DNA from: Malus domestica
Lineage: Eukaryota; Streptophyta; Magnoliopsida; Rosales; Rosaceae
Assembly: GCF_042453785.1 (NCBI RefSeq)
Contig: NC_091664.1
Span: forward strand, 30,986,501 to 31,050,500
Direction: 5' to 3'
DNA: 64,000 nt
Of this stretch, positions 5,952 through 58,200 are shown one piece after another (position 1 is the stretch's first letter; each line of letters starts with the position of its first letter). The position numbers and the translations under genes are program-made. Below the pieces are notes generated by a model. That model saw only the letters and a list, made by a program, of their open reading frames with translations. It ran no database searches and was not told the DNA's origin.

Positions 5952-6614
5952 CTACACTCTTTTGGGCCTGACTTCAATCCCCTGAACAATAAGGCCTCTC
6001 TTCATTCTATGAAGGTCAACATCCATACATGTCATCTCCATTAACCCCCCATCTTCTTCTCCTGAATAGAAAAACTCTCCAATCTCCACCTCCAGCCAGC
6101 CGTCGGGCCTTTTCTTTGGATATTGAGTTTCATCGATTTCCATGGGTCTCCCGGTAATGTTCTGTCTCCCCGGAAACACAATGCGCTTACTACTAGTCTC
6201 TTCTTCCCCAAAAAGTCCTACCTTGACCTTCAAGGGATCGTCACGACCAAATCCTCTAGCCCTTTCATTTAACATGAACACAAGATAAGCTTTGTAGACA
6301 GTGGAGGGGGAAAGAATCCGTGTATCAATTTTGCCACGAATGTCAAGCCACCAAACAACTATAAGCTCAGGCACCTCCTCAAACCTGCACGCGTCTCGAG
6401 GCGTCGTTAAGGAGACGACGTTAGCTATGCATCCTTCGGGGAACTCCTGCAGATCCATGTGAACGTGATGATGATCGTCATCGAGTACCATCGACACCGG
6501 CGTCCCGCAGCCCCCGCAGGTGATTCCTTCTCCTCCTCCTCCTCCTGATGCACCGGCGTCGACTGTTTTCTTTTGCATCTCTGGTTGATCTCCGTCGCGG
6601 CGGTGTCTCTTCAT
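5952..6614 (-). CDS. PP2-B-like F-box protein with an internal deletion
   Basis: This is a single-exon open frame of 220 residues. The N-terminus copies the neighbouring F-box gene (MKRHRRDGDQPEMQ, then LPEGCIANVVSLTTPRDACRF). It then jumps directly into the C-terminal PP2 lectin domain (EEVPELIVVWWLDIRGKI, later KVKVGLFGEEE, PDGWLEVEIGEFF and a closing IQGIEVRPK-like end). The second half of the F-box, the usual first intron and the start of the PP2 domain are missing, roughly 100 residues compared with family members. The junction lies at an RF dipeptide shared by both parental sequences. The frame stays open, so a protein could be made, but SKP1 binding through the half F-box is doubtful. 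A (TGTC)n tract sits just upstream of the ATG. Confidence 0.7.
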   Translation of the reverse strand: MKRHRRDGDQPEMQKKTVDAGASGGGGGEGITCGGCGTPVSMVLDDDHHHVHMDLQEFPEGCIANVVSLTTPRDACRFEEVPELIVVWWLDIRGKIDTRILSPSTVYKAYLVFMLNERARGFGRDDPLKVKVGLFGEEETSSKRIVFPGRQNITGRPMEIDETQYPKKRPDGWLEVEIGEFFYSGEEDGGLMEMTCMDVDLHRMKRGLIVQGIEVRPKRV

Positions 6615-6617
6615 GTT

Positions 6618-6618
6618 T

Positions 6619-6659
<41 letters not shown>

Positions 6660-6660
6660 G
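6618..6660. repeat. (TGTC)n microsatellite
   Basis: About ten tandem TGTC units lie immediately upstream of the start codon of the minus-strand PP2-B copy, in its presumed 5' leader. The other PP2-B copy has only two units at the equivalent place. Confidence 0.9.
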
Positions 6661-6789
6661 ACGTTGACTCTCGGGTCGTGCGTGTTCTGTTGTGCGTAAG
6701 AAACTTGTCATATTTGTAGGGAGAGAGGCCTTACGCGTTAAGTCACGGTTCAATTTTTCCTCGAGTTCCTTTTCTAATGTTGACAAACG

Positions 6790-15259: not shown

Positions 15260-16764
15260 GAGCGAGTCGGGTGAGTCGACTCGGGGCGAGTGGGATAAAC
15301 CCTACGACGGAGGAGGGGAATGCGTGTGCTGGTGGTGGATCTGGGATTTGGTGTTGTTGCAGGTGATCATATCTCTCTCTCGTGTGGGATCTGGGAAGGA
15401 GGAAGGTGAGTGGAGGAGAAAATGGTAATTTAATTGATAAAATCGCAGAAGAGACGGGACGAGGTGGTGTTCGTGATGATGGTTCGTAAATTATGACAGG
15501 GCAAAACCGGGCCGACCCGGCTTGGCAGGAATTGGTGTGAATGAAAAGCTGGTTTTGCAATTTGAAGCCCAATAAGTTTTTATCCAATTACTATGGGTTG
15601 TGGGCCTAGGCCCAATTTATTTTTCCTTTCTTTTGTTTTTTTTGTTTTTATTCGAGCATCCTAATTTAAGAAGATTCGAACTTGAATGCTAGCTTGTATT
15701 CTTGTAGGTCTTTCTCTACCCCTTTAGATTCCAACAATTCCCGCTAGCTTGTATTCTTGTACTTAAACTCACAAATCTCATTATTCTTGGAGTCCAGTCT
15801 CAGCCACGAAAAATGTTTTAAGTGCAATTTGACAACCTTCCTTGCACTAGGACTCTACGTATAGTGGTGGCATCACAAATAAATCATGTATTGATGTGAC
15901 AAATTTAAAATGCATGATAGTACGTGATTGACTTAATACATTACCACTTAATTCTAAGTAGGGACGCCTCTTTAATGTGAAATGATCAGTACTATTATAA
16001 GTACCGATCAATCTTCCCTTCTTTTTTTTTTCTTTTTGATTTACGATGATTCTTTATTACGAGTTATAAGCAATACTTGGCAGGACAAAATTTTCCAAGC
16101 CTCAATTGACCAAATGTCATCAAGAATCATAGCATTGTTGAGAGATATAAACATCTCTTTGTCTCTCTTACGAATGCGATTAAACGTGAACTGTAGAATT
16201 ATCACAGGCCATACGACATACTTCCAATAACACCGATATTGTTTCCAACTTGATAATTACCACATGCACAATCCATCAGGTATACGGTCCATTTCCAACA
16301 ATACTGATATTGTCTCCAACTTGATAATTATCACATGCACAATCCATCAGATGTGAGGTTTTTATCACAAAATGCATCGGTGCTAGTTGGAGTGGGTTTA
16401 TGATATTTAAACTTTTATTTTCTCGTTGATACGGTCGATATGGGATATTTCAACATGAACATCCCTTAATTTTTGGAGCAATATCCTCATTGAAAGTGGG
16501 GTGTTGAATTCCCCCCGTTATCGCTACAAGTCGTTGGGTTGAACATTGAGTTACAGAACTAATGGGTGAGTTTCCACGAAACCTAGTTTTGGATCTCTCG
16601 ATCATGATTTGCTGACATGTTGTACTCGTTTGAGATTATTTGATGAATTTGGAAAAGTATGAATGAGTCGACTTTTGAGCCAACTGTAACTGCAGAGGGC
16701 TTTCGTTTTCTGACATTTTATATTTCAAGTAGATGCAAGACAAGACATCAACTTTTGATGCCTG
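15260..16764. other. Intergenic region between VPS54 and kinase copy 1
   Basis: The left 150 bases are the VPS54 5' leader and promoter. The block at about 15840-15960 recurs in diverged form at 18830-18920. At 16228-16352 a segment of about 70 bp is tandemly duplicated (core ccaacttgataatta). An NB-LRR relic lies at 16045-16165. No other gene is seen. Confidence 0.6.
16045..16165 (-). pseudogene. Short NB-ARC relic of the neighbouring CC-NB-LRR
   Basis: On the plus strand this reads like a shortened copy of parts of 23045-23320, the NB-ARC region of the CC-NB-LRR at 20.7-24.0 kb. Shared blocks include ttattacgagtt, gaccaaatgtcatcaagaa and gcattgttgag, in the same order but with the DNA between them deleted. 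It is far too short to function and shows that CNL sequence was once present here too. Confidence 0.7.
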
Positions 16765-17790
16765 ATGGGGTTTCTTGCACAGTTTATCTCGCGTTTCTTT
16801 TCTCCTCGGAGTAATGACGGTGATCAAAACAAGACCAGATCCAACCGCACAGCACAAAGCCAAAACCGGGCCTTTGCGGAAGACTTCTGCCGTCGCTTTT
16901 CACTCGGCGAGATGAGAGCAGCAACACAATGTTTCAGTAACAGCTTACGTATTGCTTCAGATGACAACGGCTCGGTGTACAAGGGTACTATCGGCAGCGA
17001 CAAAGTGGTTGCAATCAAACGCTTTGTGGGAGATTCAAAAGAGCAGTTCAGGACGGAGGTGCAGCTACTCTGCCAGCTGCGCCACCCAAACATTATCTCT
17101 ATCATCGGATTCTGCGAAGAAAAAGAAGAGTGCCTCATCGTTTACAACTACATGTCCAATGGTGCCCTCTCTAAGTACCTGGATGATCCCCTCGATAGGG
17201 ATCCAGTCCTACAGCTGTCGTGGAAGCAAAGGTTGAATATCTGCATCGGGGTGGCGAGTGCATTACAACACCTCCACACCGGGGTTAAGCGTTCTATTGT
17301 CCATCGATTTGTGAATAGTTCCAATATTCTATTGGATGAACAGTTCGTGCCAAAGCTTTCCGACTTTGGGAGGTGCATGACAGGCCCTCGTACTCTGTCG
17401 AATGGATTAATTAGATGGGACTCCGTGATGGTAAATGGTACATACGGTTATATTGCTCCAGAGGCTTTCTATGGTCAACTCACGGAAAAATCTGATGTCT
17501 TCTCATTTGGATTGGTGCTATTGGAAGCCTTGTGTGGAAAACCTCTGCCAGTAGATATTTATAATTCACTGAAAACGGGTGAAACTTCTCTTGATATGAT
17601 TGATCCATTTCTGACGAGACAAATAGCTCCGGACTGTTTGAAGAAATTTGTGGAAATCATCCAGAGATGTGTTCGCCCTAGCGGAGCTGAACGGCACTCA
17701 ATGGGGGAAGTGGAGGTGGAACTAGAGAGCGCACTGCAGCTGCAGGAAAGTGCAGACGCCGTCAAACACCCCTTCTCTATCAATTCCTGA
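16765..17790 (+). CDS. CrRLK1L-like cytoplasmic kinase, copy 1 (probable pseudokinase)
   Basis: This is a 341-residue intronless protein with no signal peptide, ectodomain or membrane span. The fold follows the FERONIA/CrRLK1L kinase domain: FSLGEMRAATQCF, VAIKRF (ATP lysine), [48 protein letters not shown]. The catalytic HRD is changed to HRF (IVHRFVNSSNILLD), so the catalytic aspartate is lost, while DFG is kept (LSDFGRCM). The glycine loop is also poor (SDDNGSVYKG). Phosphotransfer is unlikely; a scaffold role is possible. The frame closes early after QLQESADAVK. The conserved tail of the family (LSIPEINDAFSSLD to a stop near 17938) continues in another frame, so a shift near 17755-17765 removed about 50 residues. 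Confidence 0.75.
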   Translation: MGFLAQFISRFFSPRSNDGDQNKTRSNRTAQSQNRAFAEDFCRRFSLGEMRAATQCFSNSLRIASDDNGSVYKGTIGSDKVVAIKRFVGDSKEQFRTEVQLLCQLRHPNIISIIGFCEEKEECLIVYNYMSNGALSKYLDDPLDRDPVLQLSWKQRLNICIGVASALQHLHTGVKRSIVHRFVNSSNILLDEQFVPKLSDFGRCMTGPRTLSNGLIRWDSVMVNGTYGYIAPEAFYGQLTEKSDVFSFGLVLLEALCGKPLPVDIYNSLKTGETSLDMIDPFLTRQIAPDCLKKFVEIIQRCVRPSGAERHSMGEVEVELESALQLQESADAVKHPFSINS

Positions 17791-20706: not shown

Positions 20707-23700
20707 TCAGTTGCGTACTACAATGGACGGTACATGTTGCACTTTGTAAAAATCCTCTCCTTCACTTCCAATGTTGATCTTGAATAAGCATCCGTATATC
20801 TCCAATTCCTGAAGTGTTTTCACAAACCTCAGAGAATCCGGAATCGTCTTCAGTTTGGTGCAATTTGATATTTCCAAACGACAAAGACTAGGCAGGGCTC
20901 CTTCTTCCATCGTCCAATCCTCTAACTTAGAAAACCCTCGGAGGAGTAGAGACTTGAGTTTTGGGAAACCTTGGTTAGAGCAGACCATTTTCTTCCCCAT
21001 GAACATTTGCCATCCGCTTAAAATTCTCAAGTTCGGCAGTTTTTCCAGTGTTGGCATTGGATCTTCCTCAAGTTTAGAGCCCCACAATGTTAACTTGGCA
21101 AGGTTTGGAGGGAACTGATGGTATTCTGGCAGCTTCTCTATCCGCCCTTCCACATGCAATTTTTTAAGACGACGACAGCTTAACATTACTTGTGTAACAT
21201 CAACAACCTCATCAGGGAATGAAAGTGTCTCACTTGTCAAGGACAAAGACTCAAGGCAGCTTAACGTTCTGTTTTGGGGATTGAAAATTTTCAACAAATT
21301 ATTGAAATGTTTTGGATCATTCAACACCAATTTTCTAAGATTGGTCAGCTTGCGAAGATCTTCTACGTCGCATTTGTTTGCAGGAAAGTTTACGAGTGTC
21401 TGCAAGTTGATCAGATTTCCCAGTTGCAGCTTATCAACTGCATTGCCACACCACTTGGGAAGATATAAATGCCTTAGCCCTTCCATCTTCCAAATCACAT
21501 TCGGAATTTGCACTGTTGGGTCCCAACTCAATTTGCTTAAGGTTTGCAAATTTAGAGTTTTCAAGTGGATCAAATTGCCGATGGATGATGGCAATGCTTG
21601 TATACGTGTTTTCTTCAAACTTAGAAACTGCAACTGAACCAATCCCCCGATATCTTTAGGTAACTTTTCGTATGGTCCCTTGACACCTTCAAGATCGAGA
21701 ACTTTGAGCATTTTGAACTCCAAAATTGTTTTTGTAAGCTGCCAACTTACCAATCTACACTTGCTTGCATGGAAATATATAAGTGACCTGAGACTGAGGT
21801 TGGAATCTTCTTTGTACTTAGACGGGATAAGATTATCGACATCTGAAGGTAAGAAGACAGCAAGTCTGCGAGTTTTACCAGTTGATTTTGCTTCAGAAAG
21901 CATGCGAGAAGAAGAAGAAGAATCCACCATCATACCTTCATCCAAACAGCGAACAGTCTGGAGAAAATTTTCCTGCTTTGCTTTCGACAAGCACAAGTCA
22001 CGCATAAGATCATGGAGGCGGCAAGTTTTAATTCTTCCAGTTGAGCCGAGAGCTCCCACTTGAACCATGCACCTATTAATCAAGTAACCCAAGTAGCGTT
22101 CCGCAACATCCTCTATTGTTTCATCTCCCTCTGCTTCATGGTGTGGCGATACAATGCCTTCTGCAATCCATAATTGAACCAGTTTTCTCCTCGGAATTTC
22201 AAAATCTTCCGGAAAATGGCTCAAATAAAGGAAACAGGGTTTCAATATAAAAGGCAAATCATGATAACTCAAAGCCAAAACCTCAGGTACCGTAGAGTGT
22301 TGCTCATGCCCTTTGGCTCGCTTTAGATACGAAAGAATATCTCTGAGGACGATATCCCACTCGTGCACTGTTTCTTTAGTGGCCAAAAGTCCTCCAAGCA
22401 CAACAATGGCCAAAGGCAAGCCAGCACACTTTTTCACCATTTCCCTCCCTAACTGCTCCTTATCTTTGCTTCTGATAAAATCTGCAATATTAAAGAAGAA
22501 AACAATTTAGCAAAACTCTCTCAGTTGGGAATAGCAATCCTATAAGAAAATGTGACGAAACTGAGTATGCACATAAAGGATCAACAACTAAACAATATAT
22601 GTAGGTTCCCAAAATTTCTGAGACACCATTATTTTTTTGTTTTAAAATTCTTCGCATATAGGAAATCAAGAATTTGAATTAGGATCCGTGAAACTGAAGA
22701 AATGATTGCAAATCTGAAGTAGTGATGGCATTTTATTCATTTATGGATCCTTGGTAGGGTAGATTTTAATGACAAACTTCAAATTATATACCTTGCAAGA
22801 AGAGAAGTTATTAATTTCTGGGTTAGATAGTATTAAGTTTCTAACTAGTTAGCGCTTGAGTACTATTTATATAATTAGGAAATGCATATTGATACAAAAT
22901 CCGGATGCATACTTAAGAAATTGGAATGGTAAACTACCTGGATCACCATTTCTTGGAAATGCCTTCTTCTGAAGCAACTCCCAACCCTCTTCTTCAGTTA
23001 AGTTCCTCGGCTCATGAAGGCCGCTTCGGTCTACAAAGGAAGCTAAGTCCTTATTACGAGTTGTAAGCAATATTCTGCTGCACCCTTTTCCCGACGATGG
23101 AAAGGCAGGACTTAGAATTTTCCAGGCCTCAATCGACCAAATGTCATCAAGAACCACCAAATATTTCTTCTCTATTTGCACTTGATAAAGCTTCTTTGCA
23201 AGCTCTTCGTCTCTCAATTTCAAAATGTGATCCCTCTCCTCTTTCGATGGAGAGGTTAGCTTAATCAGAATGCCTTCCCAAACATCTCTTGGTTTGCATT
23301 GTTGAGATATATAAGCCCACGCAGAAGCGTCAAAATAACGCCTAACATGATCATTGCGGTAAATTTCCTTGGCAAGAGTGGTCTTCCCCAAACCGCCCAT
23401 CCCACAAATGGACACAACTCGACCGTGTTTTTCTTCATTCATGAGCTCCGCCACTAGTTCGTTTATGCTTCCTTGTAAACCAACGATATGGTCATCAATA
23501 ACATGGGAATAAGACCACCTCAATTGTCTTTGCTTCTCAAACGCAATACTCGACGAGCCTTGATGATCTCTTACTACAGTCAAGCCGTAAGTTTGTGTAC
23601 TTCTAGTAAGGTCAGAAATTCTAGCTTTGATGGCCTCAATCTCAGACCCAACATCATAAAGGTTTGAAGCTCGGTTGAAAAAACAAGCGTACCTTTTTAA

Positions 23701-23970
23701 CGGATTGGAAATTGGTGGTGAAATTTTGATGGTGAAACTTCCAATGACATCCTCTGCATCATAAGCAACTTCTCTAATCTCGGAAACCCAATTCCGAATG
23801 CTGTCATCCTCGTCTTGCCTCTTATCGGCATCTTTCAAGAAGCATTGCATCCGACTCAGTTCGACTCGGATCTGCTCAACGTTTTGCTTGACCCCGTGTA
23901 AGAAGGTGGCTTTTTCAATCAGCAGGTCCCCAAGCCTTTCAATGACAAAGTATACCACTGACTCTGCCAT
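20707..23970 (-). CDS. CC-NB-LRR disease resistance protein (RPP13/RPP8-like)
   Basis: This is an intracellular immune receptor of the CNL class with two exons, 22938-23970 and 20707-22481, giving 935 residues. The coiled-coil domain carries an EDVID-like motif (YDAEDVIG, about residue 70). The NB-ARC shows a P-loop GMGGLGKTT (190-198), kinase-2 KKYLVVLDDIW, RNBS-B SRILLTTRNKDLA, GLPL as CAGLPLAIVVLGG and an MHD-like RLHDLMRD. A leucine-rich region follows, with motifs such as LPKDIGGLVQLQFLSLKKTRI and later LRRs. The intron falls in the NB-ARC between RNBS-B and GLPL; donor CAG|GTAGTT and acceptor TTGCAG are canonical and the join is in frame. No breaks were seen, so it is probably functional. 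It is the only whole NB-LRR here; a relic of the same type lies at 16.05 kb. Confidence 0.92.
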
Positions 23971-24720
23971 GCTTTGTGCTTGCTAGCTACTTCCTGATCC
24001 TCAAAATTACAGCAAAACAAAGGTTGATTTTACACACACAAGAAAAGAAGAAGAAAAAAAACTCTTCCCTTCTTTCTTTCTTTGTGATTTGTATAACCAA
24101 CTGGCAATTATTTTGATATTTTCCACCGTCCGAGTCTCATTCAGTGGAGAAGGAAGAAGCGAAAAAAAAGAAAACATAAAAGATCTTGAAACTTTGAAAC
24201 TTTGAGTTTTAATGATAAGGACAAAATAAAGGATGAAGTAAATAGTATCATGATTGATTTTTTAGTGTAAAAATATGATTTTTCGTTAAAATGACAGTAC
24301 CGACTGCTTTTCGTTAAAATTTCCAAAAAAAAACGAGACTGAGTCCCTTTCAGTAGGTAATTGTTGGGAAGATTCATGGCTAAATTATATATCTCGAGTT
24401 TATATCCGCTTGTGTCTGTCTATGCAGCAGGAAGTTTCTCTTCTCTTGTTGGGAAGGTGGCGAATGGTCCAATCTGGCGTGCGTGACTGCAAATATTTTG
24501 ACGTGAATGTGGGGCTATTATATTATCATATAATATCCTTACAACCCTTCAATTATTTTCCAATTTAGAGTACATTAATATTTGAGGGCAACGCGTGAAG
24601 AAAGAAGAAAAAATAATTGGAAACAAGACCAAGTTTGCTTCAGTAGGTAATTATTGGTAAGCTTCTTAACTATATATCCCGAGTTTATATTTGTTTGTGT
24701 ATATCTCTCTCTGTCGTTAC
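23971..24720. other. CNL promoter and kinase-array upstream block
   Basis: The left part is the 5' flank of the CC-NB-LRR. The block at 24420-24600 (gaatggtccaatctggcgtg through ttgagggcaacgcgtga) is repeated at 25225-25410 on the other side of the hAT MITE, so the two copies are a direct duplication. No gene is seen. Confidence 0.65.
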
Positions 24721-31477: not shown

Positions 31478-31689
31478 CGAAGTTTGGCCAGTTTCGAAGA
31501 AATTACTTGGCTCTGAATTTTCTTGCATTTATTTCCATGTCCCATTACGAATTCATTGGGGATGCCGCTTCAAAAGTAAGTCCCCTTTGCCCAGGAGTGC
31601 CAAGACTTATGATCATCATCAATTGATTCTTAATGTCTAAATCTAAGATTTTGAGCTCCTGATCTTGGAATTAGACAACAGTTAGCACA

Positions 31690-32847
31690 ATGATGGGTTT
31701 CAGTACTACCGCAAAGTCCGTCTCATGTTTCTTCTTCTCTGCGTGGAAGAAACTAGCATCATGGGATAAAAGTAGAAAACGCAGACAAAACCAAGATTGG
31801 GCCTTTATGGAGGAATTATGCCGCCGATTTTCGCTAGATGAGATCATAGCAGCCACTGAATGCTTCAACGACAAGTTCCATATTGGTAGCAATACCATGG
31901 GCTCAGTCTATAAAGGGTACATCAACGGCGGGGCAACTGTTGTTGCAATCAAGCGATTTACAGGCAGCAGACAAGACTTCAGGAATGAGGTGCTGCTGTC
32001 CTGCCAGCTGCGCCACCCCAACCTTGTCCCTGTTATTGGATTCTGTGAAGAAAAGGAGGAACTCATCCTTGTCTACGACTACATGGCCGAAGGTGCCCTC
32101 TCTTCTAAGCTGTTCAAAAGAGCGGATCTTGATCCGCTGCCCTGGAGGCAGAGGCTGAACATATGTATCGGGGTAGCACGCGCATTGCATTATCTCCATG
32201 CAGGGCTAAAACATGTTATTGTCCACCGCGACGTGAAATGCTTCATCATACTATTGGATGAAAGGTTCGAAGCAAAGGTTTCAAACTTACTAACGTTCAA
32301 GATGGGTCCTCCTAGTTTGTCAAATAAATTCATACGAGTGACCTCTGGTAGGATCGTGGGCACTTTCGGGTATACTGATCCCGAGTATATCCATTTGGAA
32401 CAATTTACAGAAAAATCTGATGTCTACTCGTTTGGAATGGTGCTGCTGGAAGTGTTGACTGCCAAATGGGCAAAAGAGTTTCAGACATACACAGGCAGGC
32501 CGGACACCTTATGCGATATAATGGACCCTTCTTTGAGGGGTAAAATAGCTCCTGATTGTTTGCAAAAATTTATGGATATCGTTTACAGATGTGTAAGTCC
32601 TACAGGAGCAGAGCGGCCCTCAGTGGGCGAAGTGCAAGTGGAACTCGAGTGCGCATTGGAGCTGCAAGACAGTGCAGATGCCAAGAAGGACGCTTCTGTT
32701 GGTCTTGCAGGTGACTATAGCTACCAAGGGATGTCAATTTGTGAAATTGAAGATATTTTCTCATTTTTGGTTAGGCAGCTGTCAACTTCGGATGCGTCAA
32801 CTCTTGATTTGAATAGCATCGATTTTTCTGCTTCTGATGATGGTTGA
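31690..32847 (+). CDS. CrRLK1L-like cytoplasmic kinase, copy 5 (probable pseudokinase)
   Basis: This is the longest copy, 385 residues, intronless, with no ectodomain or membrane span. Family landmarks are [78 protein letters not shown]-like FTEKSDVYSFGMVLLEVL and the tail MSICEIEDIFSFL. HRD is present, but the catalytic-loop asparagine is isoleucine (VHRDVKCFIILLD) and DFG is replaced (VSNLLTFKMG), so both metal-binding residues are lost. The ATP lysine is kept. The frame is whole, so the protein is likely made and may act as a non-catalytic partner of FERONIA-type receptors. That role is inferred from family precedent only. Confidence 0.8.
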   Translation: MMGFSTTAKSVSCFFFSAWKKLASWDKSRKRRQNQDWAFMEELCRRFSLDEIIAATECFNDKFHIGSNTMGSVYKGYINGGATVVAIKRFTGSRQDFRNEVLLSCQLRHPNLVPVIGFCEEKEELILVYDYMAEGALSSKLFKRADLDPLPWRQRLNICIGVARALHYLHAGLKHVIVHRDVKCFIILLDERFEAKVSNLLTFKMGPPSLSNKFIRVTSGRIVGTFGYTDPEYIHLEQFTEKSDVYSFGMVLLEVLTAKWAKEFQTYTGRPDTLCDIMDPSLRGKIAPDCLQKFMDIVYRCVSPTGAERPSVGEVQVELECALELQDSADAKKDASVGLAGDYSYQGMSICEIEDIFSFLVRQLSTSDASTLDLNSIDFSASDDG

Positions 32848-38842: not shown

Positions 38843-40160
38843 GTGGCAAAGCAAAAAATAGTCGGGAGGAGGGGCGAAATTTAGAACTGTAAAAGGTCCC
38901 AAAAAAGTGCAAACAATCAAATCCTTTTAGATAGTAGGCAATATTAATGTCGTTCATAATTAAGGTTAAAGGTTCTAAAAAACGCTAGGTCTAGGCAGGC
39001 AGCGAACTGAAGCCTGGCGCCTAGACAAATTTGAGTAAATTTATTTATATATCATCTAACGCCTAGGCAGGAACCTAGACGTATTTGAGTAAATTTATTA
39101 TGTATATATCATATACATAAGTGTCTTACACCTTAAAAAATTATACTTGTATTGAAGCTTCAATTTATATTTAACTAAGCTTATTATTTAACATATAACA
39201 TTCAAAATTATCAAAATTTTATTTTAATAATTTAGTGAATATGATAGTACGAGAAAAGTACACTTCTTATAGTGAGTTATTATTTTTTATAAAACTCTAA
39301 ACTATAAATTAATAAAATTAATGCTCTGAAATCTTTTGTTAATATTAAAAAATAATTATAAAAAAATAAGAAAATAATCAGAAGTGGCTTGCAGCTGTAT
39401 TTTCATTGGTAGCCACAACAAAAATGAAACTGTGCGTTTCAACTTAAATAGTTGGGCCCCTTCTTCTTCCTCGCGAATCATTTGAATCGCCGCTTCTGCA
39501 ACGCAGCTCCGGCTCGCACAGGAAATGCCCATATTTCGTCTTATTTCTTCGTTATACGCCAATAGTAGTTGGGATTGAAAAAAAAATTGAAGGCCTACAA
39601 CGGATGATGTACAGCAGCAGAGGAAGCAAGGGGCATTTGCAGGTTTTCTGACTGACTAGAGGGGCGGCTACCCGTTTCTGGGATTCTTTTCCGGCGAGAG
39701 GAGGGGCGACCGCCCCTCCTTGCTCCTCTGTAGCTTCGCCCTCAGCAGGCATACCTCAACAACACACAGTTCAACTGCTCTAGTAACCCTGCCATATCAA
39801 AAGGGTACCTCTGTGATGCCAGTGTCAGGTCCTGCCAGTCCTTCGTCACGTTCAGATCGTAGCCGCCCCATGACACCGCCATAAGCATCGCCTCTCTACT
39901 CGCCTCCGAAGCCTCAGAAATTGCCTCAGTTAACAAAGTTTCAGCAAATGACAAGATTCCAAGCAACATGTTGGTTGTAGTTCCAGTTTATTGTTCATGT
40001 TCGGGCAATATCCTCCAGCACTTCTCTCCTTACACCGTGACAAAAGGCGACACGTATTATTGGACGGCCCTCGACACTTTCCAAGGCCTGACTACATGTC
40101 AGTCTCTGATAGGTCAGAACTACTATGACCTTGAAGATATTCCTCTGTAGCTTCGCCCAT
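38843..40160. mobile_element. DNA transposon-like insert carrying a gene fragment
   Basis: This insert sits within the Cassandra LTR. Its left end starts CAGTGGCAAAGC and then gaggaggggcga; the right end, read inward, gives GGGCGAAGCTACAGAGG and soon gaggggcg. These are imperfect inverted ends of the hAT/Tip100-like style (CAG-GGC-AAGC). No clean target duplication was found, so the class is tentative. It contains a nested repeat (cgcctaggcagg motifs near 38980-39080) and a captured LysM gene fragment at 39745-40143. There is no transposase. Confidence 0.5.
39745..40143 (+). pseudogene. LysM receptor ectodomain fragment inside a transposon
   Basis: On the plus strand this reads as a copy of the LysM ectodomain of the receptor gene at 41.0 kb (GYLCDASVRSCQSFVTFRS, then SIASLLASEASEIASVNKVS, VVPVYCSCSG, SPYTVTKGDTYYWTA and TCQSLIGQNYYDLED). 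It covers residues equivalent to about 27-160 and has one internal stop after TFRS. It lacks the signal peptide, the last LysM and the kinase. Its start (QQAYLNNTQFNCSSN) differs from the nearby gene and is closer to LYK4/5 relatives, so the donor may be another family member. A 17-bp direct repeat, CCTCTGTAGCTTCGCCC, flanks it. Confidence 0.85.
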
Positions 40161-41016: not shown

Positions 41017-43184
41017 ATGAACCTATCTTCCTTCTATGATTTCCTCTATGCTTGCCTGTGTATGTCCCTATTTTATCAACCAGCACACGCTCAGCAGGTA
41101 TACCTCAACATTACACAGTACTGCGATGCTAGCTATAGCCCCATGTCAAATGGGTACCTCTGTGATTCCAGTGTCATCAAGTCCTGCCAGTCCTTCGTCA
41201 CGTTCAGATCGCAGCCGCCCCATGACACCGCCATCAGCATCGCCTCTCTCCTCTCCTCCGAAGCCTCAGAGATTGCCTCAGTTAACAAGGTTTCAGCAAG
41301 TGACAAGATTCCAAGCAACAGGTTGGTTGTAGTTCCAGTTTCTTGTTCATGTTCGGGCAGTATCTTCCAGCACTTCTCTACTTACACCGTGACAGAAGGC
41401 GATACGTATTATAAGACGGCCGTCTACACTTTCCAAGGCCTGGCTACATGTCAGTCTATGATAGGTCAGAACTATTATGAACCTGTAAATATTACGGTGG
41501 GAGCAGTGTTAACAGTTCTGGTGAGATGCGCTTGCCCGAGCGAAAAGCAAACTGCAGATGGGATTACATCCCTGCTGACATATACAGTAGCCATGAACGA
41601 CACAGTTGCAAGAATAGGAGAGATATTTGGGGTAAACAGTCAAAGTATACTAGAGGCAAATTTGTTGTCACGGGACAGCATTATCGACCCTAATACAACT
41701 GTTCTTGTTCCCCTCAAAAGCAAGAAATGCCCTACTTCTGATGGGAATTTCGTTGCAAATGGGAGTATCCTAGAATATGTCGATTGTATTCGCAACGGCA
41801 AAAAGTTTCCGGTGAAGTTGGTCACACTGCTAGGTATATAAATCTATCCTCTATATCTTACAGTCTAGCAGGCCGATGTACAAAAATGCATCGATGTAAT
41901 TAGTAGTAAAATTATTCATTATATGTCGTATTTTATTTTGTCACGTTTCAAATATCAGACTTTACATTCTTCTAACAACTATGTCTCTGTATTACTTGAA
42001 TTTTCAACTTGGACGTGAGCTAATTGGTTTTTCTTTGTTGTCTAATTTGCTTGACAGGTATTGGGATTGGGTTTGCATTCATATGCGTGTTCCTTTTATG
42101 CTACTATTTATATCAATGCCTGAAGAGAAGGAGAACCAAAACCCGTAAGGAGAACTTTTTCAAGCAAAATGGGGGCTTCTTGTTGCGAGAAAAATTCTCA
42201 TCTTATGGAATTAGTAGCAATGCAAAACTATTTACTGCAGAGGAGTTGGAGAGAGCAACAGATAACTACAACGAGAGCCGGTTTCTAGGGGAAGGAGGTT
42301 ATGGCACAGTTTATAAAGGGATGTTACCTGACGGAACCATAGTAGCGGTTAAAAGGTCAAGGGCGATAGACGAAAATCAGATTGAGCAATTCATCAATGA
42401 AGTTGTCATTCTAACTCAAATCAATCATCGAAACATCGTGAAATTGCTTGGTTGTTGCTTGGAGACGGAGGTTCCATTGCTAGTATATGAGTATATTTCT
42501 AATGGAACTCTCTCCCATCATATCCGTCAGAAGAAAGACTCCACCGAATCATCACTTTCGTGGGAATACCGTTTAAGGATCGCTTGTGAAGTTGCCGGAG
42601 CAGTAGCGTATATGCACTCAGCAGCTTCAATCCCCATCTATCATAGAGACATCAAGTCGTCTAACATACTTCTAGACCATAACTACAGTGCTAAAGTATC
42701 CGACTTTGGGACTTCCAAATCAGTTCCCCTTGACAAAACTCACTTGACGACACAAGTACAGGGGACTTTCGGGTACATGGATCCCGAGTACTTCCAATCT
42801 TGTAAGTTCACGGACAGAAGTGATACCTACAGTTTCGGAGTTACGCTCGTGGAGATACTAACTGGACACACCCCATATTCTTTTGCAAAACATGAAGAAG
42901 AAAACCTGGTTGCAGCGTTCATTTCATTGACGAGGGAAGATGAACTCGTTCAGATTTTGGATCCTCAAGTGGCTAGAGATGCAGATGTTAAGCAAATTCG
43001 CACGATTGCAGAGCTTGCAAAACGGTGTTTGAGGCTGAATGGGGCAAAGAGGCCTAGTATGAAAGAGGTATCAACAGAGTTGGAAGGATTGAGGAACGCT
43101 CAAAGATGCCTTGAAACGTTCCGAGAAGATCCTATAGAGCAAAATATTGATTTCCCCATGGAAATTGAATCTGCATCGCTTTGA
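41017..43184 (+). CDS. LysM-ectodomain / WAK-type kinase chimeric receptor
   Basis: Two exons, 41017-41833 and 42058-43184, give 647 residues. Exon 1 encodes a signal peptide (about 1-25) and a LYK4/LYK5-type ectodomain with three LysM modules and CxC motifs (CSCSG, CACP). LysM domains of this sort bind chitin or related glycans. Exon 2 encodes one membrane span (about 273-295) and a kinase that follows wall-associated kinases (FFKQNGG, LFTAEELERATDNYNESR, INHRNIVKLLGCCLETEVPL, SNGTLSHHI) rather than LYK kinases. All catalytic residues are present: GEGGYGTVYKG, VAVKRS, HRDIKSSNILLD, DFGTSK, GYMDPEY. The intron is phase 1 with canonical sites and sits exactly between ectodomain and membrane span. 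Nothing is broken. Predicted role: plasma-membrane receptor coupling glycan sensing to WAK-style signalling. Confidence 0.9.
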
Positions 43185-43448: not shown

Positions 43449-46059
43449 CTACCTACGATCATCAGATATAGTCTCTTCAGAAGAACCATCGCTGGCTATA
43501 ATAATTACGTTGTCTTGTTTACCCGCACGACGAGAATGATCCCTTCTCTGTTTCCCCGTCCCAAGTCCTACCGATGAGTAGTTGAAAAGAGGAGCATTTA
43601 CCTGCATTTCATTCCTTGGTACCAAATGTGATTCCCGACGATCAAAACCAGCAAGGGTGACATTCAACCTGTCTGAATGAGCAATTGATGAAACAGTTGA
43701 AGGCACAGTTGGGGGTGGAGAAGCAACAGCTTCTCTGAGCCAGTGGGGCAAATTTCCCTGTGGTCCAGTGCAAGTTGTGGGGACATCAGTCGATAACAAC
43801 TTGCCCCTCCGAATACTTCTACTTCTATTTAGAATACTAAATTCATCATCTTCATGTGTGTCCCTTCCCATTTCAAAACGAGATGTCCTCTTTGTGTAAC
43901 CAAGAGGCCTCCGGTGGTTTTCATTGCCATTGTTGCAAGTATAAGCCGAATTGAATAGTGGCCTCCTCGAGACATCACCTCCTCTACAAGCATCAACATC
44001 GCCAAGTGAAACTTGGGTCAGGTCTGCTGTATTTTCTTTCCATATTCCTCTTTTTGGACCCGAGAAGTAGTTGCATCCCAATTGAGGAACACAAATGCCA
44101 CTAAAAAGTTTTGATTGTTCCTCTTCCCACTGCTCAGCTAAGTCCCTTGCCACCCTCCGTGGTGAGAAGTGCAATCTTGGATCCCTTAACATAGCATTCC
44201 AATTGTCCCGTCCATATCTTCTCACACCCATCCATAGAAAATCCAACTCTTCTTCAGACCACATGGTATTATATGGCATATATTTGTCATGAAAACCACC
44301 CCCTTCATTCAAAGCTCTTGCTTGGCTTACTACACTGTCATGCATAAGCTTGTGCCTCCAAACTGATGGTAAACGGCTTGAAGAAGATTGGAGCGCTGCA
44401 TCTCGGATGAATTCTCTTGTTCTAATGATGGAGTTCAAGAAGGGAGATGTATTGAAGCAGGTATTGGCAGCACATCCTGCAAATATAGGTTTTTCGGTGG
44501 ATGGACCCAAAAACATAGGAGATCCTTGTTTTGGTTGATCATGTTGGCCTCCCAACTGAAGAACTTTTCTCCGTTCTGAAGCTACAGAAGCAACTACCTC
44601 AGGATGTGTTATCACCGGGCCAAAAATGCCACTGGTTTTTTCTTCTGGAAACAGCTGAAATGATATAAAATAAAATTATTTGGCAGGCAAACTATCCCCA
44701 AATATTCAAACAAGAAGACTTACAAAACGTACCTGCAGACATTTATTTTTGGAAGTATTCTCCTCGGAAATCAGAGAACCAACTTTATCATCATCATCTT
44801 TGCAGCTGGCACCAACTTCTAAACATTCAAATCCATCTCTGTGTAATTGTGAAGCTTGAGTTTCCACTCTTCCAGTTCTCTCAGCCGACATTTGTGGAGG
44901 AGACGGTTTATGTAATACAAAGGCATGATTTCTGCTAGTAGAATCCAACGAGTCCCCCACAGCTTTTGGTGCATCGGTGTCAGGTTGCTTAGCAGGACTC
45001 AAGTTTAAGTCAAAATTGCAGTCCACAGTGCCGCATGAATCTGCTAGTAAGAATGTCTTGTCAGTAAAAAAGGAATGTGAATTAATAGTGTTATTGGTTC
45101 AATAATGCATGCCTAGAAATTTATGAAGTCTTACCAGTTGGGATAACAGACAGGTCCAAGTAAGGAAGCGATCTGCCTAAACGAGGGATTTCTGTTGCTT
45201 TAAGATCATCACTTGACAAAACTTGAGCTTCGTCTATGGAGTGCTTCAAATCTGTCTCATGATTTACTGAGCAGTTTTCAGGGGAAGTTTCGTCACACGA
45301 AGCGGCATTAGCACAAACAGAATTACTCAATTTGGTTACCAATGAGCAATTGTTTTCCACAGGCACAGATTTGCTTCGTATATCAGACTTATCTGTATCC
45401 TTTCTCCTTTTTTTCCTTCGGCAGAAAGTAATCAATGGGGCAGTCGACTTGGTCTGCACAGCTGAATCACCACATGAGTTATCTACCTTATTTTTAGAGA
45501 GTGAATCAGTGTCTTCCAGGTTTGATACATTCAATCTTAGCGATATACCAACACATTTAGAGCCACCTTTTATTTCAAATGATGATGATGATGATAATGA
45601 TTTTGGTCGGACAAAATCAGCAGTCATTTCAGTGGCATTCCCTGTCAATCCGCAAACTAACCTCCCTCCAACATTATTATCATCAACCAACGCTTCACTA
45701 TTAGTATTTGAGGACGAGCCAAATTTCTGGTGACTTGACTTATTCTCCAATGATAGGTCCATAGAAGAGGATCCATACGTATCCCTTTCGGAGGGACCCT
45801 CATCGAGACTTGTCAGAAATTTATGGGAATTAATTGACAATTGTCTAGGCTCAGGTACTTTAACTTGTTTCTTATCCTCCAGTCTGCTAAAGTCTTTGGC
45901 TGAACGCTCTTCAATCAAATAAACTTGCAAGTCTTCTCTACATGGAGAAGTATCACTCGGAGCAACAAAAAGAGCATTATGGCACTCATGTCCCTCTACA
46001 AGACCTTTCCTTGATTGCCGCTTTCGCTTGTACGTTAAAATCACTTTGGTCCCTGACAT
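43449..46059 (-). CDS. SANT-domain nuclear protein related to the CHR4 C-terminus
   Basis: Three exons (45135-46059, 44733-45040, 43449-44654) give 812 residues with in-frame canonical junctions. The first part is serine-rich and low complexity with a basic patch ([10 protein letters not shown]), a likely nuclear signal. Exon 2 holds [10 protein letters not shown], an EAR-like DLNL motif. Exon 3 has a SANT/Myb-like module ([32 protein letters not shown], then WEEEQSKLF) and a motif [16 protein letters not shown]. From memory, both the SANT-like module and the LPHWLREAV motif occur in the C-terminal tail of the chromatin remodeller CHR4/PKR1. No chromodomain or SNF2 ATPase is encoded here, so this is a stand-alone relative of that tail, probably acting in chromatin through partners. 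Confidence 0.75.
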
Positions 46060-48000
46060 TGAAGCTTCTCAAGAGAAATCTTGCAGCAATTCCAAACCTT
46101 AGGACCCCATCCAAAAACACACTTCTACAACATGAAATATCTCGTTCTTCCGCTATTCATTAACATTTACAACACAGAAAAACCTGCAAAAGTTAAGGAA
46201 GAAGATCTAGTTAACTAAAAAGCAATTTAAAACTCATATAAAACACAATACAATGACAGATGAAGGCAAAAGATAGATTCCCATTCTATTCCCGAATGGC
46301 GATCAGTCTTACAAGGACTGCAGCAGATACCAATGGTACTTGGCATTTTTAAGCGCTAATATTTGCTAGCTAAAAGCATTTAAATTTGAAAAAACGAGAT
46401 TTTTGTTCCCACTTCTACTTTTCATATATTCCGTCTTTCTTTTTTCTTCATATTCATGATATTCATTGTCGTCAAACATAGGCCCTATAGTCCATGCGTC
46501 CATGTAGAATTTGACTACTCTACTGTAAATCCTGGGTTCTATATGCTAAGGAAGAGCTGCCAATTCAAAATTTATCCAAATCCAAAACCGAAACACACAC
46601 ACTTACGCTACCCAGCACACGAAAACCATACCTGTTTCCAAACAACAGATGCTATACCAAATTAAAACCCATAAAACATTCCAAGAACACAACTTTTACT
46701 TTAATATTCCACTTTGAATTCATGAACTTCAAGGAAAAGCTCAAAATTCAAGAACACAACTTTTACTTCAAGGAAGAGCTGGAAATTCAAAATTTATCCA
46801 AATCCAAAACCAAAACACGCACACTTCCGCTACCTAGCACACGAAAAGCATACTTGTTTCCAAACAACACATGCTATACCAAATTAAAAACATAAAACAT
46901 TCCAAGAACACAACTTTTACTTTAATATTCCACTTTGAATTCATGAACTTCAAGGAAGAGCAGGAAACTCAACCAAGAACACAACTCTTACTTCAAGGAA
47001 GAGCTAGAAATTCAAAATTTACTCAAAACCAAAACCGAAACACGCGCACTTACACTACCCAGCACATGAAAACCATACCTGTTTCCAAACAACACATGCT
47101 ATACCAAATTAAAACCCATAAAACATTCCAAGAACACAACTTTTACTTTAGTATTCCACTTTGAATTCATGAACTTCAAGGAAGAGCTCGAAACTCAACT
47201 AAGAACACAACTCTTACTTCAAGTAAGAGCTAGAAATTCAAAATTTACCCAAAACCAAAACCGAAACACGCACACTTACACTACCTAGCACACGAAAACC
47301 TATAAAACATTCCAAGAACACAACTTTTACTTTAGTATTCCACTTTGAATTCATGAACTTCAAGGAAGAGCTCGAAATTCAACCAAGAACACAACTTTTA
47401 CTTTAACCAAAACCCAACACGAAAGCATTACCTGTTTATAAACAACACATGCTCCACCAAATCAAAACCCATAAAACATTCCAAGAACAGAACTTTTACT
47501 TAAATATTCAACTTTGAATCCATGAACTTCTCTCTAAGCTAAAAAATTGCAGAGAACTCCATGTCCTCTGGCAATTCGAGGGCGATTTACACACATTTTC
47601 TCACATGGGTTTGCTAATTAAGCACCCAAAATGTTCCATTGAGCAGCCAAGCATTTAAATTTTCTAAATTTGTTTTTGTTTTCCAGCACTAACCTCGTTT
47701 TCCACGAAGCAATTAAAAAATTACCTCATTTTTCACGAAGCAATCAAAGGAAAATTGTGCAATTTCCACAAACAAACATACACTTGAATAGAAAGCATCG
47801 GATAAAAAAGAAGAGAGATGGATCAAACCGGAGCTCGGCGAGCAAAACGACGTCGAAGCAGTGCACCCACCGCCGGTGAGACCTCTGTTTTCTGTACAAA
47901 AATTTGAGTGCTTTACTTGCTGTTCCTCAGTAGAAAGACAGAGGAGAGGGAGAGAGCATCTATCAGTGACTGTGAAGTGACAGAGTGACTCATCGAAACG
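46060..48000 (-). other. 5' region of the SANT-domain gene, with a UTR intron
   Basis: The ATG at 46059 is followed upstream by a leader. The GC-richer stretch near 47820-47990 (ccggagctcggcgagc) looks like the true 5' UTR exon and promoter. The AT-rich DNA between about 46190 and 47800 would be a 5' UTR intron; its exact splice sites were not fixed. The intron holds a minisatellite. Confidence 0.5.
46540..47545. repeat. Minisatellite of about 165-225 bp units, five copies
   Basis: The phrase aaacattccaagaacacaac recurs near 46675, 46895, 47119, 47305 and 47470. It is followed each time by tttactttaatattccactt or a close variant, and a shared caaggaagagct block. Spacing shrinks from about 220 to 165 bp because later units lack internal parts. 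It lies in the presumed 5' UTR intron of the SANT-domain gene. Confidence 0.9.
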
Positions 48001-55200: not shown

Positions 55201-58200
55201 CCGACCTCTTCTCTCTTCAACACCTTTGAAAATGTCTGGCCCCTCCGACCGTCGTTTTGACTTGAACCTTGTTGAAGAGGCAGCCCCGCCTTCTCCAGAC
55301 AACATATGGCGCCCATCCTTCGTCTCCCCTACTGGTCCTCTTACCGTTGGGGATTCCGTGATGAAGAATGATATGACCGCTGCGGTGGTGGCCAGGAACC
55401 TTATCACTCCCAAAGATAACAGACTACTTTCCAAACGGTCTGATGAGTTAGCTGTTAAGGATTCGCTGGCTCTCAGTGTTCAGTGTGCAGGTTCTGTGTC
55501 TAATATGGCCCAACGCCTATTTGCTCGAACCCGCCAAGTTGAATCATTGGCGGCTGAAGTGATGAGTCTCAAACAGGAGATTAGAGGGCTCAAGCATGAG
55601 AATAAACAGTTGCACCGGCTCGCACATGACTATGCTACAAACATGAAGAGGAAGCTTGACCAGATGAAGGAAACTGATGGTCAGGTTTTACTTGATCATC
55701 AGAGATTTGTGGGTTTGTTCCAAAGGCATTTATTGCCTTCGTCTTCTGGGGCTGTACCGCGTAATGAAGCTCCAAATGATCAACCTCTGATGCCTCCTCC
55801 TTCTAGGGTTCTGTCCAGTACTGAGGCTCCAAATGATCCCCCTCCGGTGCCTTCTCTTTCTGGGGCTCTACCGACTGCTGAGACTTCTCCTAAGCAACCT
55901 TTGTGAAGGCTCCCTCTTGTGTGCTTATTTTGACTCATGTATATGTACATATTTGTAGCTTATCGGGGATATCAATAAATAAGCTTTCCTTCATTTCAAC
56001 GTATTGTGTTAAATACACCAAAGCCTTCTTCGCTAAGTTCTTTGAATTTTCTTTTGTTAAAGCTTGTATGTTGAAGCTTTCTGAGTGGAGCATGTAGGTT
56101 GGGGTAGTGTTCTCTTAATTTCCCGAATGAGGAAAACTTCTCGGTTGGAGACTTGGAAAATCCAAGTCACTGAGTGGGATCGGCTATATGAATCTTAGAA
56201 CGCCATTGTGCTCGATCCTGTGTCATGTCCTTCGTTAGATCCAAGTACTCTAAGTCTTTTCTTAGAGTCTCTTCCAAAGTTTTCCTAGGTCTTCCTCTAC
56301 CCCTTCGGCCCTGAACCTCTGTCCCATAGTCGCATCTTCTAATCGAAACGTCAGTAGGCCTTCTTTGCACATGTCCAAACCACCGTAACCGATTTTCTCT
56401 CATCTTTCCTTCAATTTCGGCTACTCCTACTTTACCCCGGATATCCTCATTCCTAATCTTATCCTTTCTCGTGTGCCCACACATCCAACGAAGCATCCTC
56501 ATCTCCGCTACACCCATTTTGTGTACGTGTTGATGTTTCACCGCCCAACATTCTGTGCCATACAGCATCGCCGGCCTTATTGCCGTCCTATAAAATTTTC
56601 CCTTGAGCTTCAGTGGCATACGGCGGTCACACAACACGCCGGATGCACTCTTCCACTTCATCCATCCAGCTTGTATTCTATGGTTGAGATCTCCATCTAA
56701 TTCTCCGTTCTTTTGCAAGATAGATCCTAGGTAACGAAAACGGTCGCTCTTTGGTATTTCTTGATCTCCGATCCTCACCCCTAACTCGTTTTGGCCTCCA
56801 TTTGCACTGAACTTGCACTCCATATATTCTGTCTTTGATCGGCTTAGGCGAAGACCTTTAGATTCCAACACTTCTCTCCAAAGGTTAAGCTTTGCATTTA
56901 CCCCTTCCTGAGTTTCATCTATCAACACTATATCGTCTGCGAAAAGCATACACCAAGGAATATCATCTTGAATATGTCGTGTTAACTCATCCATTACCAA
57001 CGCAAAAAGGTAAGGACTTAAGGATGAGCCTTGATGTAATCCTACAGTTATGGGAAAGCTTTCGGTTTGTCCTTCATGAGTTCTTACGGCAGTCTTTGCT
57101 CCTTCATACATATCCTTTATAGCTTGGATATACTCAACCGCTAAGAAACCATATCCAAATGTGTCACTTTCTAATAGAAGAAAGGAAAGTTACAGCGAGA
57201 TAGTATGCTTTTTGCGGCAGCCTCTTTCGAAAACTTATTAGCAAACATGGCATAATAAGACGATTCCCAATATCCCCCACTAAATAGATATTAAAGGAAC
57301 CTTTTGTCTGCCATGAGAATTGTAAAACCCTAAGAGGTAGTTTTTCTTTCACTTAGTTCAAAATGCAGGATAAGTAACTCACTTAGAGACATGAAAATCA
57401 ATGCAAAAAAGAAATCAATGCAAAAAAGAAGGATTTAACAGTACCTCCTCAGGGCTGTCAAAACGCTGAAGCTCTTTTTCAATCAAATTTGCCATTGCCG
57501 TTATGTACCCTTCACGCTGGTACCAAGATGGTATAACTGTGTGCTGCATGTTGACAAGATATTCATCCTCCCTGATGAACTTATCGGGTCAGTTTAAAGA
57601 TTATAATTTGAGGCACTGATATGGGAAAACATAGTTAGAGTTAGACATCACCGGAATATACTCTCCAGGAGCCGAAGGCTTGAACCACTAGTCGATATTG
57701 AAAATTGCGGATAAAGTGGAAGGACAACAAGCTTTGTAATTCCATCTCTTTTAATCTACAACATATTTTTAAAATCAATAACCAGATCCATGGACTTTTA
57801 ACCCCAATCGAAAATCTAAATCTCATAACACATTTGCATGTTACCTGTTCAATTGAACTTAACCTAAGACTTGACAACAGTGCGGAACAACCATTATTAT
57901 TAAGTGGCACCATAGTTAAAGACAGAAGAGCATGTCTCAAGTAATTTGTGAAGCAAAAATTGAAGTGGGATGATTCAACAAAAACTATATATTGTTTATT
58001 GTACAAGACAACGTAAACTCTAATAAGTACATAACTCAGATATCATTGACAGATACATCGAAAATCAAGATGAAAGCATACCAAAATACCTCTTCTATAG
58101 CTTCTTCAGTAAATGGATGCCAATAACGCATTCCCACGTACACTTTTGCCGGGACATCCTTCGCATAAAGGGCCTTCCTCAACTCTTCTGCCTGAATGAA

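Follow-up and report, generated by a model that had tools for sequence, protein, structure and literature searches.

The closest described systems to the gene analysed here are LysM receptor kinases of the LYR-IV type, which in the available text of Buendia et al. (2018; PMC6207691) comprise MtLYR5, MtLYR6, LjLYS20, and PpLYR5 and have kinases close to those of WAK proteins. Among the species covered there, LYR-IV was restricted to legumes and peach. The Group III LysM-RLKs, as published descriptions present them, have two exons, a CXC motif, and conserved kinase residues, occur in rosids including Eucalyptus, and were explained as a fusion. Furthermore, the accessible parts of a Rosaceae survey (PMC7487666) describe a WAKL group of LysM proteins with 11 genes in six of eight species, namely apple, two pears, peach, mei, and cherry, with none in the strawberry and raspberry columns. 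Of nine of its 11 table rows, seven list two exons, the others being PpeWAKL1 with three and PcoWAKL1 with five. The four apple members (MdWAKL1-4) lie on chromosome 4 and carry MD04 identifiers; MdWAKL1 (646 aa, 72.01 kDa, pI 5.94) and MdWAKL4 (645 aa, 71.87 kDa, pI 6.32) have two exons each, and the two shorter members have 493 and 500 aa. The pear gene PbrWAKL1 was reported in the same survey to be up-regulated upon Botryosphaeria dothidea infection. In PMC8779459, found under four apple WAKL ids, MD04G1238900 is named BAK1 and given as down-regulated, and the main text of two apple transcriptome papers (PMC12835272, PMC9125221) mentions no MD04G123 ids. The cited literature, in the portions available, describes no ligand or signalling output for LYR-IV receptors. 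Judging from the descriptions, the Rosaceae WAKL group is most likely the same as LYR-IV.

In this work, a 64-kb window of the apple genome (G000:C4:30986501-31050500; all coordinates below refer to this whole stretch) was analysed, and the genome searches covered 651 Mb in 19 contigs. The gene of interest, at 41017-43184 on the plus strand, was read from its splice sites as two predicted exons with 647 codons. Its features and those of a nearby remnant are as follows.

39741-40141, plus strand: tandem exon-1 remnant of 134 residues, 88.5% DNA identity, in-frame TAG (blastn, tblastn, translation)
41017-41833, plus strand: exon 1, with a putative signal peptide, a LysM triplet at about residues 56-234, and a Cys-bearing stalk of 37 residues (Pfam, AlphaFold2, Foldseek)
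41834-42057, plus strand: predicted phase-1 GT-AG intron of 224 nt, with the site and phase of the last WAK intron (splice-site reading)
42058-43184, plus strand: exon 2, encoding the membrane-spanning segment and a Ser/Thr kinase of WAK type (Pfam, motifs, tree)
43182-43184, plus strand: stop codon, at the end of exon 2

The segments 41017-41833 and 42058-43184, when joined, form one open frame of 1944 nt, that is, 647 amino acids and a stop, with a predicted product of 72.22 kDa and pI 6.02. The donor reads CTGCTAG/gtatat and the acceptor cttgacag/GTATTG, so that a Gly codon is split in phase 1. The GC content of the intron is 30%, compared with 46% and 43% in the exons. When donors at 41780-41859 were combined with acceptors at 42000-42119, one alternative GT/AG pair was also open in frame; it uses a donor at 41785 and the same acceptor and shortens the product by 16 codons. 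The first Met of exon 2 is codon 88, and because it sits inside the kinase, exon 2 could not start a receptor alone. The two-exon LysM/WAK-kinase reading was thus confirmed as far as sequence can do so, with splicing predicted. By the published descriptions, the gene has in common with LYR-IV / Group III (LysM-III; MtLYR5, MtLYR6, LjLYS20, LjLYS21, and PpLYR5, which is Prupe.6G357200) three LysM domains, the CXC motif, two exons, a complete WAK-like kinase, and an LYR-type ectodomain, and no difference was found among the features tested. It is also like the Rosaceae WAKL group, as far as that group is described, in its position on chromosome 4, its two exons, and its length (647 aa here versus 645-646 aa). 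The original prediction had called this architecture uncommon, a view overtaken by the published accounts of LYR-IV / Group III and of the Rosaceae WAKL group. The architecture is already known, and the gene is a sound example of a described hybrid receptor type. Whether the same kind of fusion occurs in other Rosaceae is largely answered by the published record.

The ectodomain is supported by its sequence as LYK4/5 (LYR) type, as had been proposed for exon 1. Exon 1 matched the Pfam families LysM1_NFP_LYK (1.5e-24), LysM2_CERK1_LYK3_4_5 (6.7e-17), and LysM3_LYK4_5 (4.5e-18); only LysM families were matched, with no GUB_WAK, WAK, or EGF match in Pfam. A putative signal peptide was recognized by reading the sequence. 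Two CXC motifs are present (C110-S-C112 and C171-A-C173, residues 110-112 and 171-173), and in having three LysM domains and a CXC motif that separates LysM1 from LysM2, the ectodomain agrees with LYR-IV / Group III. An AlphaFold2 model of exon 1, made from an input alignment of six rows, had a mean pLDDT of 75.9 and placed LysM units at residues 56-113, 116-170, and 183-234. The pLDDT was below 50 at residues 20-31, 38-42, 237-250, and 258-272, which makes the model of the stalk unreliable. In a Foldseek comparison with solved structures, MtLYR4 ranked top (5.0e-24), followed by five LjCHIP13 entries (1.2e-23 and following), three of which contain chitooctaose; NFP and LYS11 came next, and then CEBiP and CERK1-type structures from 1.3e-12 on. 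The ectodomain tree had 13 rows: this gene (L009), 10 further loci among the 22 genome matches, and two PDB rows. The matches left out as fragments or stopped frames were L010, L013, L014, L018, L019, L020, L022, L024, L025, L026, and L028. In this tree the fusion and eight LYR-type rows were separated from four other, untyped LysM rows with support of 95/97, which supports membership of the LYR type and not a particular branch position among LYR rows. The ectodomain is 41% identical to the closest LYR of the same genome. Compared with LYK4/5-type receptors (LYR-III; MtLYR4, LjCHIP13), the ectodomain family and fold are common, at 40-42% identity. The LYK4/5-type genes L011 and L012, read by eye, differ in that they have Pro-rich, Cys-free stalks, no membrane-span intron, and kinases without standard HRD and DFG.

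On the other side of the intron, the kinase is supported as WAK-type with complete catalytic motifs, and the proposal of a membrane span followed by such a kinase is borne out by motifs and phylogeny. Exon 2 matched Pkinase in Pfam (1.2e-51) and contains GEGGYGTVYKG, VAVK, HRDIKSSN, DFG, and DPE. It has the conserved kinase residues of LYR-IV / Group III, which LYK4/5 (LYR-III) kinases lack. The closest WAK-type exons in the genome were 53-58% identical among the 110 of 3040 first-look candidates that were scored. A maximum-likelihood kinase tree was made from 39 of 41 rows, L046 and L052 being dropped for stops and the fragment L060 left out; its rows include no CERK1-type (Group I) kinase from the same assembly. 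The fusion fell inside a 21-row WAK/WAKL clade (100/100), where it adjoins L032-L035, L039, and L041 (95/88). A topology uniting the fusion with four LYR kinases was rejected (p-AU 0.0177). A topology uniting the 20 WAK rows without the fusion was not rejected, and because its p-AU was 0.188, the kinase may be either nested in WAK or sister to it. In a sequence search of solved structures, the kinase scored 219 to 210 bits with FERONIA, SymRK, and BAK1, compared with 173 for CERK1 and 125 for a LysM-domain receptor-like kinase. Separate trees of the two exons gave an LYR-type ectodomain and a WAK-clade kinase. The gene is alike with WAK/WAKL genes in kinase clade, last-exon boundary, and intron phase; it lacks their combination of GUB_WAK_bind/WAK and EGF in the ectodomain. 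WAKs of the same genome carry GUB_WAK_bind, WAK, or EGF_CA: GUB_WAK_bind and/or WAK were matched in all five WAK-clade first exons scanned, and EGF_CA in all three EGF exons scanned, once under its curated cut-off.

The claim that an intron directly precedes the membrane-span exon in WAK genes holds in the present genome. A phase-1 AG candidate with an open frame lies just 5' of the membrane span in 20 of 20 WAK-type loci (L032-L051, of which the L044 and L045 kinases are identical and some have further candidates in other phases), in 16 of them in the form AG/G. Moreover, the preceding EGF exon ends in a split G/GT codon in phase 1 in each of 14 WAK loci for which that exon was identified by eye (L032-L038, L040-L044, L046, and L052). 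No intron was read from LysM3 through the membrane span in any of the five LYR loci L011, L012, L015, L016, and L017, the last of which has a frame that stops further on, within the kinase. Since the WAK loci share the site and phase and the LYR loci have no intron there, the most fitting reading is that the fusion took its intron over from the WAK gene.

The part of the original prediction that placed the intron exactly at the domain border stands for site and phase, which are those of WAK genes. It is less secure for the exact join, since the 37 residues that link LysM3 to the intron (KCPTSDGNFVANGSILEYVDCIRNGKKFPVKLVTLLG) form a stalk with two cysteines that is unlike the stalks of this genome's LYK4/5-type genes. 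The join may therefore lie inside exon 1, or it may be at the intron. The stalk has some similarity to the last part of a WAK EGF exon. In pairwise comparisons with 14 WAK tails, uncorrected p values were 0.014 (L036), 0.016 (L033), and 0.018 (L043), and most others were above 0.05. The last 17 stalk residues, a test chosen after the tree had singled out one WAK group, gave p 0.008 against that group with full shuffles and 0.12 with the hydrophobic end kept, compared with 0.0016 and 0.12 for other WAKs and 0.28 and 0.68 for LYR stalks. A profile of 14 WAK tails counts against a WAK-derived stalk: the fusion tail scored 0.0 bits, a value reached by 252 of 1000 full shuffles and 475 of 1000 segment shuffles, the LYR stalk L015 scored higher (4.1 bits), and three other LYR stalks were below zero. 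It is conceivable, though we consider it rather unlikely, that the LYR ectodomain was joined within the penultimate, EGF-bearing WAK exon, so that the stalk would be an EGF end with two cysteines and the WAK intron would have been carried along. If this were true, a transcript of this gene that retained the intron would give a soluble protein with the three LysM domains.

We propose, with a probability of about 0.92, that the gene encodes a LYR-IV / Group III LysM receptor kinase that goes back to an old fusion of ectodomain and kinase. According to the literature in the form available, such genes would have arisen early in rosids, when an LYR ectodomain came to lie 5' of a kinase taken from another family. 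Two aspects of the published record count against the proposal, namely that the WAKL members described are not all two-exon genes and that four apple WAKL genes were published, compared with one intact gene and one remnant in this assembly. It could instead be argued that two neighbouring pieces are present, exon 1 being a LysM gene of its own and exon 2 the final exon of another gene, a broken WAK. If exon 1 were read on into the intron, its frame would stop at a TAA (41839-41841), and the product would be a short secreted LysM protein. We regard this as very unlikely, because the joint is in frame with GT-AG sites in the WAK phase, exon 2 has no start codon before the kinase, and two exons prevail in the WAKL rows, as published. 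Moreover, when five WAK first-exon and three WAK EGF-exon proteins from this genome were run as tblastn queries, nothing in the window matched at E<=0.01. With two LYR kinases as queries, the hits were exon 2 and, at 16.9 to 32.6 kb, kinase pieces that all lie upstream of exon 1; therefore, at that tblastn sensitivity, there is no second kinase exon 3' of exon 1 in the window.

A recent origin by exon shuffling in Malus only, through recombination within introns, would agree with the single intact copy in the genome and with an intron close to the domain border. It is even harder to credit, since legumes, peach, and other rosids have published members of the same architecture, with a matching group in pears, mei, and cherry, and the five LYR loci examined are uninterrupted from LysM3 to the membrane span. 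Furthermore, the join appears old, because identity is only 53-58% between the kinase and the nearest WAK-type exons among the candidates scored, and 41% between the ectodomain and its nearest LYR counterpart in the genome. In the LYR-IV / Group III reading that we prefer, the ectodomain would bind a chitin-type glycan at the plasma membrane, by analogy with the nearest structures. The kinase, unlike that of LYK4/5 relatives, would phosphorylate targets itself, to judge from its motifs, and by this ability glycan binding might be coupled to WAK-type output. LYR-IV receptors would then represent a natural domain swap, in which a chitin-type sensor is combined with the active kinase of another receptor family. 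The copy in this well-assembled genome leaves that picture unchanged and is useful for testing ligand and output.

A genome search with exon 1 gave 22 matches at E<=1e-5, and full-length exon 1 was matched at this locus only, with the 134-residue remnant as the runner-up. By comparing the two lists by eye, an exon-1 match adjoining a listed WAK-type kinase was found here only, the kinase list being a lower bound. The assembly thus holds one intact fusion and one exon-1 remnant, which ends 0.9 kb upstream of the gene and has 76% protein identity to exon 1. The signal-peptide part was unmatched in the remnant and no kinase exon was found for it by blastn and tblastn. Between exon 1 and the remnant, dN and dS were 0.120 and 0.135 (NG86) and 0.124 and 0.124 (YN00) over 132 codons, with the stop codon skipped; these near-equal values fit a decayed copy and say little about the intact gene. 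A 209-residue WAK-type kinase fragment (L060, G000:C4:31088157-31088780), 55% identical to exon 2, lies about 38 kb beyond the window. Within the window, receptor-type kinase pieces at 16759-17787 and 31675-32844, both on the plus strand, are about 31-37% identical to exon 2, and fragments of the same receptor-type set lie near 19.4-20.2 kb and 26.2-26.7 kb. A CC-NB-ARC-LRR disease-resistance-type gene occupies 20710-23982 on the minus strand in two open frames (Rx_N and NB-ARC; NB-ARC end, winged helix, and LRR). The neighbour on the opposite strand, at 43452-46068 (minus), consists of two long open frames with no Pfam match and may be akin to the terminal part of a CHR4/PICKLE-related chromatin remodeller. 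A Phloem protein 2 (PP2) domain is located at 5955-6707 (minus) and a retroelement reverse transcriptase domain at 56170-57189 (minus).
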